A stretch of DNA of 64,000 bases, taken from NCBI GenBank assembly GCA_916048095.2, contig OU696584.1:1027501-1091500 (forward strand). The letters run 5' to 3'. Under the pieces are notes generated by a model. It ran no database searches. It worked only from the letters and a program-made list of their open reading frames with translations, and had not been told where the DNA came from. Source of the DNA: Sacculina carcini. Taxonomy: Eukaryota > Arthropoda > Thecostraca > Sacculinidae. Positions 32,502-56,235 of this stretch are shown piece after piece. Position 1 is the stretch's first letter, and each line of letters opens with the position of its first letter. The translations under genes were made by a program, and so were the position numbers.

Positions 32502-35500
32502 ATGGAGCTGCGTGTCGGGAACAAGTACCGTCTGGGCCGTAAGATTGGCAGCGGATCGTTCGGCGATATCTACCTGGGTGAGACATCTTCAGTCATCACT
32601 AATACTCATTACTAATCAGTCCAATTTATGCGCATGTGTGTACGCTTATTTATGTTTGTATATGTGTTGTTCAGTGGCGTATTTTAATTGTTTATTTAGT
32701 GGCGCATGCAAATTGTACTGTCTGCGCATCTGAGACACATTGTGTGTAGATATTGCGCTATGTAAATGTTTAAATGTGATATAAACGTGTATGTATGTGT
32801 GGCTGTCAGGAACTAACATATCGTCGGGCGAGGAGGTCGCCATCAAGTTGGAGAGTCGCAGAACCCGGCATCCGCAACTGAGCATCGAGTACCGCTTCTA
32901 CCGCACCGTGTCTGGCGAACGTCAGTGCTCATCACACACACACACACACACACACACACACACACACACACACACACACACACACACACACACACACACA
33001 CACACACACACACACACACACACACACACACACACACACACACACACACACACACACACACACACACACACACACACACACACACACACACACACACACA
33101 CACACACACACACACACACACACACACACACACACACACACACACACACACACACACACACACACACACACACACACACACACACACACACACACACACA
33201 CACACACACACACACACACACACACACACACACACACACACACACACACACACACACACACACACACACACACACACACACACACACACACACACACACA
33301 CACACACACACACACACACACACACACACACACACACACACACACACACACACACACACACACACACACACACACACACACACACACACACACACACACA
33401 CACACACACACACACACACACACACACACACACACACACACACACACACACACACACACACACACACACACACACACACACACACACACACACACACACA
33501 CACACACACACACACACACACACACACACACACACACACACACACACACACACACACACACACACACACACACACACACACACACACACACACACACACA
33601 CACACACACACACACACACACACACACACACACACACACACACACACACACACACACACACACACACACACACACACACACACACACACACACACACACA
33701 CACACACACACACACACACACACACACACACACACACACACACACACACACACACACACACACACACACACACACACACACACACACACACACACACACA
33801 CACACACACACACACACACACACACACACACACACACACACACACACACACACACACACACACACACACACACACACACACACACACACACACACACACA
33901 CACACACACACACACACACACACACACACACACACACACACACACACACACACACACACACACACACACACACACACACACACACACACACACACACACA
34001 CACACACACACACACACACACACACACACACACACACACACACACACACACACACACACACACACACACACACACACACACACACACACACACACACACA
34101 CACACACACACACACACACACACACACACACACACACACACACACACACACACACACACACACACACACACACACACACACACACACACACACACACACA
34201 CACACACACACACACACACACACACACACACACACACACACACACACACACACACACACACACACACACACACACACACACACACACACACACACACACA
34301 CACACACACACACACACACACACACACACACACACACACACACACACACACACACACACACACACACACACACACACACACACACACACTGTAGATCCCG
34401 GTTATTAAGTCCATGAAACTTTTCACGCCTGAAATACTATGTTTCTATTAGCACGGTCCAATAAGCTCACCCAAAATGTGAACTTTTTTCTGGTGGTATT
34501 TTTCTATTGTTCTGTTTGTTGCACATATACAATATGTTAACAAAATCCATCCCTGCCTATCTTTTACGTGTTAATTGACGTTTTTAATCAAACTATTATA
34601 CATATTTCTACTTTATTAACATTGATATAATTCATACTATAATGCAGCTTGTTTTTTATATAAGCTGGATTTTTTACCCTGAAATAGTTCTGACCATTAA
34701 GCCCGCCATGGAAAATAAGGAGTAGAATTGTGCATTATAATATGTGCTTAATAGCCGGCATCTACGGTATTCAAAATGAATGTCGGTATGTGTGGATGAT
34801 TGCAGTGACAAGAGCGATTTTCATAGCAGTGAAATGCCGTACATTTTCCGCTTCTTATTGTTAGTAATATTCTAGTGATACTCGTTCACTGCTATGTAAT
34901 GCTCTTCATGTGTTATCCCTTCATTTATCCCCATGATTTCCACACCGACCATGCCACGAAACACATTCACTATGTGTATATAAAACCTCCGTTTGAACTG
35001 GCATGTCTTTTTATTTTTTAAACCCTCATCCGTAGTTTCGTTCAATTAGAAGGTGCCGCTATATTTTTCCACTAGCTGGTCAGAAATTTGAAAAGATACG
35101 GTGAATTTTGTGTATGAAAAATGAACCAGATAACGTATGCATATTTATTTAACACAATACACAAATACAGGGTGATTACTGGTAAATATTCACACATTCA
35201 CTAGTGAAAACCTAGTTACACGGCGTTATTGTAGCTGTTAAAACGAGGCTTAATTTGAGCTGCAGTTAAAATAGATGTGTCGTTTAAGTAGATGTTTTAC
35301 GGTGTATATATGAGTGTATGTGTGTGTGTGTGTGTGTGTGTGCCGGTGTGACAGCTGGTATTCCGCTGGTGAAATGGTTCGGCACGGAGGGCGACTACAA
35401 CGTGATGGTGATGGAGTTGCTCGGGCCCAGTCTCGAGGACCTCTTCACATTCTGCTCGCGCAAATTCTCACTGAAAACCGTCCTGCTTCTCGCCGACCAA

Positions 35501-56000: not shown

Positions 56001-56235
56001 TTACCTCAGGCAACGTGCTTCTATGCCGAACCAAACCATCTTCCGACTAATTGAGAGATAAATATTGGGCTCATGTGAGAAGACGCTGTTATACATAAAC
56101 CTACCAGCAACAGCTTGTAAGTTGCATTGGAAACTGTTGTGTGTTGTGTGTTTGTCGCAGATGTGGATAAGATACCAGACCAGAGACAACGGCAAACTTG
56201 TGTTCCGCATCGTCAAAATGGAACAAACCACTTAG
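41035..56235 (+). CDS. MEIOB: MEIOB, meiosis-specific OB-fold ssDNA-binding protein
   Basis: Eleven exons: 41035-41152, 43589-43720, 45731-45806, 46493-46715, 48270-48423, 49248-49448, 50296-50476, 53580-53641, 54979-55097, 55502-55576, 56161-56235. All phases agree and give 471 aa, in the range of human MEIOB. An RPA1-like protein that, with SPATA22, binds ssDNA in meiotic recombination. Landmarks: exon 2 [14 protein letters not shown] (human FSFTIRDS..NAASWG); exon 5 [18 protein letters not shown] and SNGWTPWQT; exon 7 [10 protein letters not shown]; exons 7-8 zinc-ribbon [18 protein letters not shown]; exon 9 [16 protein letters not shown] (human IDLTDHTGTLHSCSLT); exon 10 [14 protein letters not shown]. 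Exon 7 carries ten consecutive Asn codons. The exon 6 acceptor (TGTGTGTCAG) and exon 7 acceptor (GAAG) are unusual. Intron 7 contains MRM2 on the other strand. Confidence 0.9.
41270..41779 (+). mobile_element. 3' remnant of a non-LTR retrotransposon, MEIOB intron 1
   Basis: Reads [20 protein letters not shown] then [28 protein letters not shown] and [16 protein letters not shown]. After a frameshift near 41670 it continues [21 protein letters not shown] to a stop. The pattern LPxLEYCxxVWxSAADxHLKLLDRVV...CMLYKI is the C-terminal region of a common CR1/L2/RTE-like family. The frameshift and missing RT core show it is dead. Confidence 0.8.
41950..42310. repeat. Tandem repeat of about 30-33 bp, MEIOB intron 1
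   Basis: At least seven units of TTATTGAATCATATTTATT followed by a variable TTGTTGTTGCTG spacer. The spacer lengths vary in steps of three. Downstream, (TAA)n at 42518-42538 ends the retroelement tail at 42380-42540. Confidence 0.9.
44045..44165. mobile_element. Repeat family A 3' end, MEIOB intron 2
   Basis: Shares GCGCCTGTGCTTAAATATGTG and ATGAAATATATGTTG..TTGTTG with the end of the element at 2825-3232. Confidence 0.6.
45222..45412. mobile_element. hAT-like MITE, CAGTGGCG family, MEIOB intron 2
   Basis: The right end GACGACGCCACTG is the inverse of the family start CAGTGGCG. The interior has AATCCTGATCTTGAATATTC and TTCGCCAGGCTTCGCAAC. It is in the same intron as weaker fragments near 45895-46030 (intron 3 side). 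Confidence 0.6.
46390..46481. repeat. (CG)n(TG)n alternating tract just before MEIOB exon 4
   Basis: About 24 bases of alternating CG pass directly into about 65 bases of TG (one TA) and end 12 bases before the exon 4 acceptor. Alternating pyrimidine-purine of this length, with a CG block, is the classical Z-DNA-forming sequence type. Confidence 0.9.
46825..47319 (+). mobile_element. Penelope-like element, RT C-terminal remnant, MEIOB intron 4
   Basis: Reads [20 protein letters not shown], then [46 protein letters not shown] and NNVRPTE. Penelope-like RTs carry F.D.....L.FLDVLV, VYRKPTNTGRYL and NGYP in that order, and the Neptune-like branch has LYYRNQM.S.YK.(D/E)E (family knowledge). The catalytic RT core and GIY-YIG domain are absent, so it is a 5'-truncated remnant ending at TGA. 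Confidence 0.8.
48708..48945. mobile_element. hAT-like MITE with 8-bp duplication, MEIOB intron 5
   Basis: The left end CAGTGGCGAATCCAGAG is inverted at the right end as CTCTGGATCCGCCAGTG. The flanks are CATTGATG and CATTGATC, an 8-bp target duplication with one change. This is the best-preserved member of the CAGTGGCG family here. A second, decayed member follows at about 49010-49215. Confidence 0.85.
50851..53151 (-). CDS. MRM2: Mitochondrial rRNA 2'-O-methyltransferase, FtsJ/RrmJ family
   Basis: Four exons on the minus strand: 53151-53003, 52594-52467, 51835-51559, 51043-50851; 248 aa, human MRM2 is 246. Transfers a methyl group from SAM to a uridine ribose in the A-loop of mitochondrial large-subunit rRNA. 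Visible: a mitochondrial targeting N-terminus, [12 protein letters not shown] (human LWLTRHLRDPFV), the SAM motif [13 protein letters not shown], and the RrmJ K-D-K-E tetrad in [22 protein letters not shown] and NSSELYIL. All four residues are present, so it should be active. An in-frame ATG at 53184 would add 11 residues; the inner ATG gives the better length. The exon 2 donor is GT ACC, with an alternative donor about 30 bases on. The whole gene lies inside MEIOB intron 7 on the opposite strand, and a hAT MITE lies in its own intron 2. Confidence 0.93.
51290..51535. mobile_element. hAT-like MITE, CAGGGGTTCTT family, flanking MRM2 exon 3
   Basis: Left end CAGCCCCTGGTTTAATTGACA, right end GGTTAAGAAGCCCTG. 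The same right-end block (ACAGGAATC.TC.CGCC..AAGAACCCCTG) recurs at about 25256-25335 and, degenerate, at 49620-49880. Lies in MRM2 intron 3, which is also MEIOB intron 7. Confidence 0.55.
51989..52363. mobile_element. hAT MITE with perfect 8-bp target duplication
   Basis: The left end CAGTGTTTCTCAAAGTGG and right end AACGTTGAAAAACACTG are inverted repeats. Both sides carry GGTTAGAA exactly. The interior is non-coding and matches 12219-12678. The intact duplication suggests a relatively recent insertion, into MRM2 intron 2. Confidence 0.92.
53655..53935. repeat. (ATCT)n tetranucleotide tract, MEIOB intron 8
   Basis: Long run of ATCT/CTAT units with longer periodic blocks (ATCATCTATCTCTATC and TACTATAATCTATCTC) showing higher-order duplication. 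ORFs of Ser-Ile-Tyr-Leu repeats are artefacts. Confidence 0.95.
53941..54685. repeat. 20-bp minisatellite, MEIOB intron 8
   Basis: About 37 copies of GTAGTCAATATGTAGTGTTT. Variants carry TAATG in place of TAGTG, TGTGT in place of ATGT, or CCATA in place of CAATA, in a recurring order. This suggests duplication of multi-unit blocks. It adjoins the ATCT tract. Confidence 0.97.
55630..55937. mobile_element. hAT-type MITE, truncated sister of 23957-24272, MEIOB intron 10
   Basis: Matches over TGGTCATCATTGGCTGCAG, AATCACGCCACATCGCTTGG and GTCCACTCAGTAGTAGC. Right end AAGGTTGGGAACCACTG. The left terminus (CAGTGGTTCTTAACC) is altered. Confidence 0.8.

Follow-up and report, generated by a model that had tools for sequence, protein, structure and literature searches.

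The 64,000-nucleotide window considered here (the whole stretch analysed: Sacculina carcini, assembly GCA_916048095.2, contig OU696584.1, positions 1,027,501 to 1,091,500 of the forward strand) contains three neighbouring multi-exon genes, CK1, MEIOB and MRM2, many of whose introns carry an alternating TG tract, (UG)n in the transcript, just upstream of the 3' splice site. An initial annotation of the region from the first base of CK1 intron 2 (32921) to the last base of MEIOB intron 10 (56160) had regarded these tracts as possibly one half of a looping system whose other half is a CA repeat after the donor. Both tracts are described here for the window and for further genes of the same genome (264 Mb in 43 contigs searched).

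CK1 lies on the plus strand and has six introns; its predicted product, rebuilt from the sequence, is 408 amino acids long. Residues 1-294 align with CK1 epsilon (PDB 4hni) at 74% identity, and because this alignment is gapless it supports the borders of introns 1 to 5; intron 6 falls just past its end. MEIOB has ten introns and matches the Pfam domain OB_MEIOB_N (E 4.3e-32), and MRM2 has three introns on the minus strand and matches FtsJ (E 3.8e-46). The whole of MRM2 (50850-53151, minus) is nested within MEIOB intron 7 (50477-53579, plus). The rebuilt genes, with the CK1 alignment and the Pfam matches, confirm the earlier placement of the introns in all three.

A run is defined as an alternation of T and G, or of C and A, over at least 8 nucleotides (nt) in the first or last 60 nt of an intron (half of the intron if shorter). 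The introns concerned are the following.

CK1 intron 2, 32921..35354, plus strand: (CA)n at 32933-34389 after the donor and TG at 35319-35342 (24 nt) near the acceptor; border backed by the CK1 alignment.
CK1 intron 4, 35944..36299, plus strand: TG at 36284-36296 (13 nt), directly 5' of CAG.
CK1 intron 5, 36471..36697, plus strand: TG run of 9 nt ending 22 nt before the acceptor; absent from the initial annotation.
CK1 intron 6, 36847..37558, plus strand: CA at 36858-36873 (16 nt) after the donor; acceptor without a TG run.
MEIOB intron 2, 43721..45730, plus strand: TG at 45703-45723 (21 nt) at the acceptor.
MEIOB intron 3, 45807..46492, plus strand: TG at 46413-46462 and 46464-46481 at the acceptor, the longest within the last 60 nt being 30 nt.
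MEIOB intron 4, 46716..48269, plus strand: CA at 46719-46741 (23 nt) at the donor and TG at 48237-48262 (26 nt) at the acceptor.
MEIOB intron 5, 48424..49247, plus strand: TG run of 8 nt adjoining the acceptor.
MEIOB intron 6, 49449..50292, plus strand: TG at 50268-50284 (17 nt) at the acceptor.
MEIOB intron 7, 50477..53579, plus strand: CA of 7 nt at the donor; acceptor T-rich, without a TG run; holds MRM2 (minus strand).
MEIOB intron 8, 53642..54978, plus strand: TG at 54957-54969 (13 nt) at the acceptor.
MEIOB intron 9, 55098..55501, plus strand: CA of 11 nt after the donor; acceptor without a TG run.
MEIOB intron 10, 55577..56160, plus strand: acceptor TG-rich, the longest run being 7 nt, below the 8-nt counting threshold.
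MRM2 intron 1, 52595..53002, minus strand: sense TG of 18 nt (plus-strand CA at 52600-52617) adjoining the acceptor.
MRM2 intron 2, 51836..52466, minus strand: a counterexample, with a CA run of 9 nt within 60 nt of the acceptor.

The ten TG acceptors and five donor CA runs named in the initial annotation are all present (those at the MEIOB intron 10 acceptor and the MEIOB intron 7 donor being the short ones), and CK1 intron 2 and MEIOB intron 4 carry both tracts, as it had stated. The (CA)n of CK1 intron 2 extends over 1,457 base pairs (bp) without interruption. Genome-wide, a 20-nt (AC)n or (CA)n starts at about 1.95 million positions, both strands summed.

TG runs at acceptors in the window and beyond

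Within the window, TG runs occur at 10 of 19 acceptors and in 4 of 275 interior 60-nt blocks (Fisher P 7e-11); a CA run occurs at one acceptor of the 19. A second set of introns came from 12 held-out genes (five multi-exon dynein heavy chains, three CCT genes, and four myosins), picked through homology by family and exon density, blind to repeats, and spread over 11 contigs with six genes on each strand. To place the dynein introns, the genes were aligned with their uninterrupted paralogues in this genome; 30 introns were modelled and one was dropped for a negative score, leaving 29. CCT and myosin introns were placed from Pfam positions in seven regions, the remaining CCT and myosin genes of the genome being left out. 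These regions comprise 37 adjacent exon pairs. Large gaps in the profile excluded eight of them, and the other 29 were used (three placed by hand from conserved residues); the choice of site included a mild penalty on AG just 5' of the acceptor. The resulting 58 held-out introns and the 19 of the window make up 77 introns in 15 genes. Pkinase genes were rejected as a further source of introns; the listed matches were mostly long uninterrupted frames, and none of 30 loci was used. Eight other loci of the genome were likewise left out of the intron sets.

Of the 58 held-out introns, 32 have a TG run within the last 60 nt and 2 have a CA run there (sign P 1.5e-8); at stricter thresholds TG and CA stand at 24 vs 1 (10 nt), 20 vs 1 (12 nt), and 9 vs 1 (16 nt). 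TG acceptors are found in each family (dynein 9/29, CCT 16/18, myosin 7/11); gene by gene, ten lean toward TG, one toward CA, and one toward neither (P 0.012). Over all introns, TG is present at 42 of the 77 acceptors and CA at 3. It had been proposed from MRM2, on the minus strand, that the bias follows transcription, and the even division of the held-out genes between strands bears this out. The acceptor TG tract, with its strand orientation, is a real feature and extends beyond this locus. The held-out acceptors also exceed intron interiors, with TG at 3.3 times the interior rate (32/58 vs 99/597 blocks; odds ratio 6.2, P 4e-10). Loss of CA tracts alone does not explain this excess, since it would leave TG at the interior rate.

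In the 42 TG-acceptor introns the TG block starts at a median of 31 nt and stops at a median of 10 nt ahead of the acceptor, which is the slot of the polypyrimidine tract. Coverage of the held-out introns by TG runs is 0.22 at 3-20 nt from the acceptor (0.218, against 0.014 for CA runs), 0.06 at 100-150 nt, and 0.03 at 200-300 nt (0.033, against 0.024 for CA). This profile bears on transcription-linked, strand-asymmetric mutation, by which the coding strand of introns would become enriched in G and T and their repeats would read TG throughout. The held-out interiors do lean that way (TG 99 vs CA 32 of 597 blocks), yet the lean is weak at 200-300 nt and strong at 3-20 nt. Interiors have no clear excess of G either, in all introns (G 0.19, C 0.205, the 1,457-bp CA tract included) or in those without TG acceptors (G 0.202, C 0.184), and the window interiors lean toward CA (31 blocks vs 4 of 275), largely owing to that one tract. 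Mutational asymmetry is a highly improbable cause of the pattern.

Base composition at positions -20 to -4 of the 77 introns (T 0.44, G 0.33, A 0.13, C 0.11) departs from that of intron interiors (T 0.32, G 0.19, A 0.28, C 0.21). TG acceptors are as rich in T as the others (0.44 vs 0.43), with more G (0.39 vs 0.25) and less C (0.07 vs 0.16). Their longest pyrimidine run is shorter (median 3 vs 4, P 0.005), which agrees with the initial annotation in that pyrimidine runs are weak at these acceptors, and the best 12-nt T content is alike in the two groups (P 0.85). The AG-free stretch 5' of the acceptor has a median of 69.5 nt in TG introns and 37 nt in the others (P 0.04).

CA tracts at donors and pairing of intron ends

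In the looping model, the repeat downstream of the donor, (AC)n, base-pairs with the (UG)n upstream of the acceptor; the splice sites are brought together, and U2AF2 is spared. Tracts counted within 60 nt of the borders of the 77 introns and compared with interiors uphold the sense TG excess at acceptors; the CA half is not supported, the 58 held-out donors having CA in 6 and TG in 7. Window donors have CA in 4 of 19 and TG in none, which is not significant (sign P 0.12; against interiors P 0.26). In favor of looping, CA at held-out donors exceeds interiors with odds of 2.0, 2.6, 3.0, and 4.8 at thresholds of 8, 10, 12, and 16 nt (P 0.14, 0.05, 0.04, and 0.02). The TG:CA ratio is lower at donors than in interiors, not significantly so (P 0.10 to 0.18). 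A weak preference for CA over TG at donors is possible, for example if (GT)n would create decoy donors.

Six of the 77 introns (CK1 intron 2, MEIOB intron 4, and four of the 58 held-out introns) have both a CA donor and a TG acceptor, and 5.45 are expected by chance (P 0.75 at 8 nt); thresholds of 10, 12, and 16 nt reveal no link either. Counting CA tracts over the entire upstream part of the intron gives no association with TG acceptors either (11 of 42 TG-acceptor introns and 11 of 35 others). Three two-ended introns (CK1 intron 2, MEIOB intron 4, and CCT_C16 intron 2) rank in the top ten by computed strength of the native end duplex, which would suit looping. Over the whole sample, however, native duplex energies do not exceed those of permuted ends. 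With 60-nt ends P is 0.61 over all introns (76), 0.81 over the held-out set (57), and 0.27 over the window (19); the corresponding values with 100-nt ends are 0.63, 0.83, and 0.13. These values lend no support to the proposal that the tracts pair to join the splice sites.

Genome-wide, (CA)6 lies within 30 nt after AGGTNAGT more often than (TG)6 does (215 vs 129, P 4e-6), which again favors looping, yet the reversed control word, itself C/A-rich, gives the same ratio (CA 193, TG 104; P 0.56). Some of the CA matches after AGGTNAGT are part of a 14-base repeat, AGGTGAGTACAAAT, that resembles a donor. Such donor look-alikes, as a short tandem unit AGGTGAGTACAAAT or AGGTGAGTACAACT, adjoin CA tracts at C2:2899564, C2:4474056, and C1:1501221. 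The retention of U2AF2-family frames in the genome, described below, also speaks against looping. The genome-wide paired system suggested in the initial annotation divides: its TG half recurs beyond the locus, and its pairing half stays at chance. A CA/TG looping system is not supported, and RNA looping is a quite unlikely account of the introns as a whole; an individual intron, for example CK1 intron 2 or MEIOB intron 4, may still form a loop.

Other features of the window and of gene structure

Plus-strand (AC)n at 53204-53250, some 50 nt 5' of the start codon of MRM2 (53151), reads (TG)n in the sense of MRM2; it may be the acceptor mark of an intron in the MRM2 5' untranslated region. Much of MEIOB intron 8 appears by eye to be a tandem array at 53940-54690 with a unit of about 20 bp (TAGTGTTTGTAGTCAATATG-like), following a TATC-rich stretch. 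Open frames at 46720-47316 (MEIOB intron 4) and 41299-41700 (MEIOB intron 1) resemble, by eye, pieces of retroelement proteins; a Pfam search with these two frames gave no match at E 0.01.

Dynein heavy chain has seven matches in single open frames of 4,025 to 4,695 amino acids, with mostly intronless coding regions (C23:2820823, C25:7198573, C25:592221, C31:1332530, C8:9764239, C1:2638184, and C6:517909). Multi-exon dynein genes exist beside these on contigs C1, C9, C11 (two), and C26. One guess is that the uninterrupted frames are retrogenes. Kinase domains occur in clusters of uninterrupted frames of up to 2,897 amino acids with several Pkinase matches in a row (C20:3.26-3.46 Mb, C24:7.69-7.78 Mb, C15:7.16-7.31 Mb, and C31:15-87 kb; also on C35, C6, C23, and C19). 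The matches are spaced 1,386 bp apart on C19, C20, C24, and C31, and a 118-amino-acid piece of one clustered frame (L014) has protein kinase C iota as its closest match.

The UG tract as a candidate acceptor signal

At many 3' splice sites of this genome, (UG)n probably takes over the function of the pyrimidine tract and is read by protein rather than through pairing. Microsatellites of (UG)n fill the polypyrimidine-tract position of many introns, where they offer U at every second base and no AG within the tract, and the resulting 3' splice-site tract is predicted to be bound by RRM proteins of the U2AF2 or PUF60 kind. A CA tract in the same place would lose its U and be selected against, whereas CA near donors would mostly represent ordinary microsatellites and CA-UG pairing would be incidental. 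The position of the tract, its sense orientation, and its enrichment over interiors were observed both in the window and in the 12 held-out genes on 11 contigs; from them we infer that PUF60-like or U2AF2-like readers bind the tract and that splicing requires it.

Several observations weigh against this interpretation. All borders of the 77 modelled introns in the 15 genes are predicted from sequence. Held-out interiors also lean toward TG, as described above, and one dynein intron (1675-2193 of the sense-oriented region C11 4907013-4911299) is a clear counterexample, having a 54-nt CA run at its acceptor. Branch-point-like YTNAY is found within 30 nt 5' of the TG block in 18 of 42 introns and in 375 of 959 interior controls, without enrichment. 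The bias is not backed by the whole-genome pattern either: YAGG occurs within 15 nt after (TG)6 7002 times and after (CA)6 6209 times, and the reversed control word RTCC 4705 and 3034 times, so that YAGG exceeds its control 1.5-fold after TG and 2.0-fold after CA. This count, uncorrected for CAGG at tract edges, is skewed toward CA because CA tracts ending in GG themselves give CAGG; from the pattern searches only forward and reversed-control counts were used, as the other column recounts each repeat phase. In addition, genes denser in repeats have a larger share of TG acceptors (rho 0.55, P 0.03 over 15 genes), as expected under passive microsatellite growth, and acceptors of repeat-poor genes (20 introns in 4 genes, chosen after the TG counts were known; T 0.44, G 0.21, C 0.17) have no G excess (P 0.29 for these 20 introns). 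Because the repeat-poor genes are T-rich without this excess, the UG tract is not a universal signal of the genome, and a universal U/G acceptor tract was dropped as a candidate on that ground.

These last results are in line with passive accumulation, in which TG grows by slippage from U/G-rich seeds at acceptors, does little harm, and has no role, while CA is removed as spoiling the tract. The dependence on repeat load, the T-rich acceptors of repeat-poor genes, and the great abundance of (AC)n in the genome are all as this account would have them. The excess of TG over interiors is more than CA removal can yield, although U/G-rich seeding could suffice, and at TG acceptors pyrimidine runs are slightly shorter and C is scarcer than elsewhere, with the best 12-nt T content not differing. 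Passive growth is the less likely explanation, with an appreciable chance of being right; a tract that does the work of the pyrimidine tract is still preferred.

Candidate readers of such a tract are encoded in the genome. A profile search of the contigs found two U2AF2-family open frames, head-to-head neighbours at C26:1032223-1036658 and both above the cut-off, that match profile positions 61 or 66 to 510 and are uninterrupted over most of the profile. One PUF60/half-pint match lies above the cut-off, in a 618-amino-acid frame at C31:185168-186685, and a second PUF60-family match lies below it, in a 1,685-amino-acid frame at C16:7533077-7534285. The N-terminal domain of TDP-43, the sole TDP-43 domain searched, has three matches, two of them head to head at C26:5886003-5886991. 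Genes of the U2AF2, PUF60, and TDP-43 families are expected in any animal, and the presence of genes like these does not tell which protein acts.

Known systems share some of these features. The teleost class of AC/GT introns that the initial annotation referred to does exist: splicing of (AC)n...(GT)n introns proceeds independently of U2AF2 (Lin et al. 2016, Genome Res 26:12-23, as described in PMC6093180 and PMC9508853), and about 10% of zebrafish introns are reported to carry an (AC)n following the 5' splice site that pairs with a (GT)n ahead of the 3' splice site (PMC6093180). As in that description, a sense-strand (GT)n lies just 5' of the 3' splice site in S. carcini, at 42 of 77 acceptors; unlike it, the (AC)n partner is unlinked within introns, and predicted end pairing is at chance. 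The 74% identity of CK1 to CK1 epsilon is also below that of fish CK1. The GT half alone is shared, and the introns described here are therefore not filed as members of the teleost class.

Two further cases concern proteins that read UG. TDP-43 binds (UG)6 strongly and (CA)6 not, and at the human CFTR acceptor before exon 9 it binds UG repeats and silences the exon (PMC3985631). S. carcini likewise has (UG)n adjoining acceptors and, known from sequence, TDP-43 N-terminal domains; in contrast to the one TDP-43-silenced exon of CFTR, its UG acceptors are common and lie in conserved genes. PUF60 has high affinity for UG-rich motifs, with TGTGT bound better than T5, and GANAB exon 6 has a PUF60-activated 3' splice site with UG-rich and UC-rich segments and distant branch points (PMC6093180). 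Resemblance to PUF60-activated sites consists in a UG-rich stretch in the tract region and a PUF60-family frame in the genome, whereas the UG repeats of S. carcini often lack the C-rich segment of GANAB exon 6. Canonical polypyrimidine-tract acceptors are similar in position, T enrichment, and CAG end, and differ in that G is raised and C lowered at the sampled acceptors. Among the literature matches listed, judged by titles and the beginnings of abstracts and with most subscription journals uncovered, no paper on UG-repeat acceptors in non-vertebrates was found.

A bolder and unlikely extension is that this lineage has shifted much of its 3' splice-site recognition away from pyrimidine tracts to UG repeats by way of extra copies of U2AF2, PUF60, or TDP-43 family proteins; TDP-43 or PUF60, which have regulatory roles in other organisms, would then be constitutive acceptor factors, and many splice sites would depend on mutable microsatellites. 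The distribution of the two tracts indicates that acceptors can frequently carry a UG tract with no CA tract linked to it at the donor, which separates two ideas joined in the teleost work. If UG does perform the work of the pyrimidine tract, conserved genes would have fast-mutating microsatellites within one of their essential signals, and it would be possible to name the splicing proteins by which the UG tract is read.

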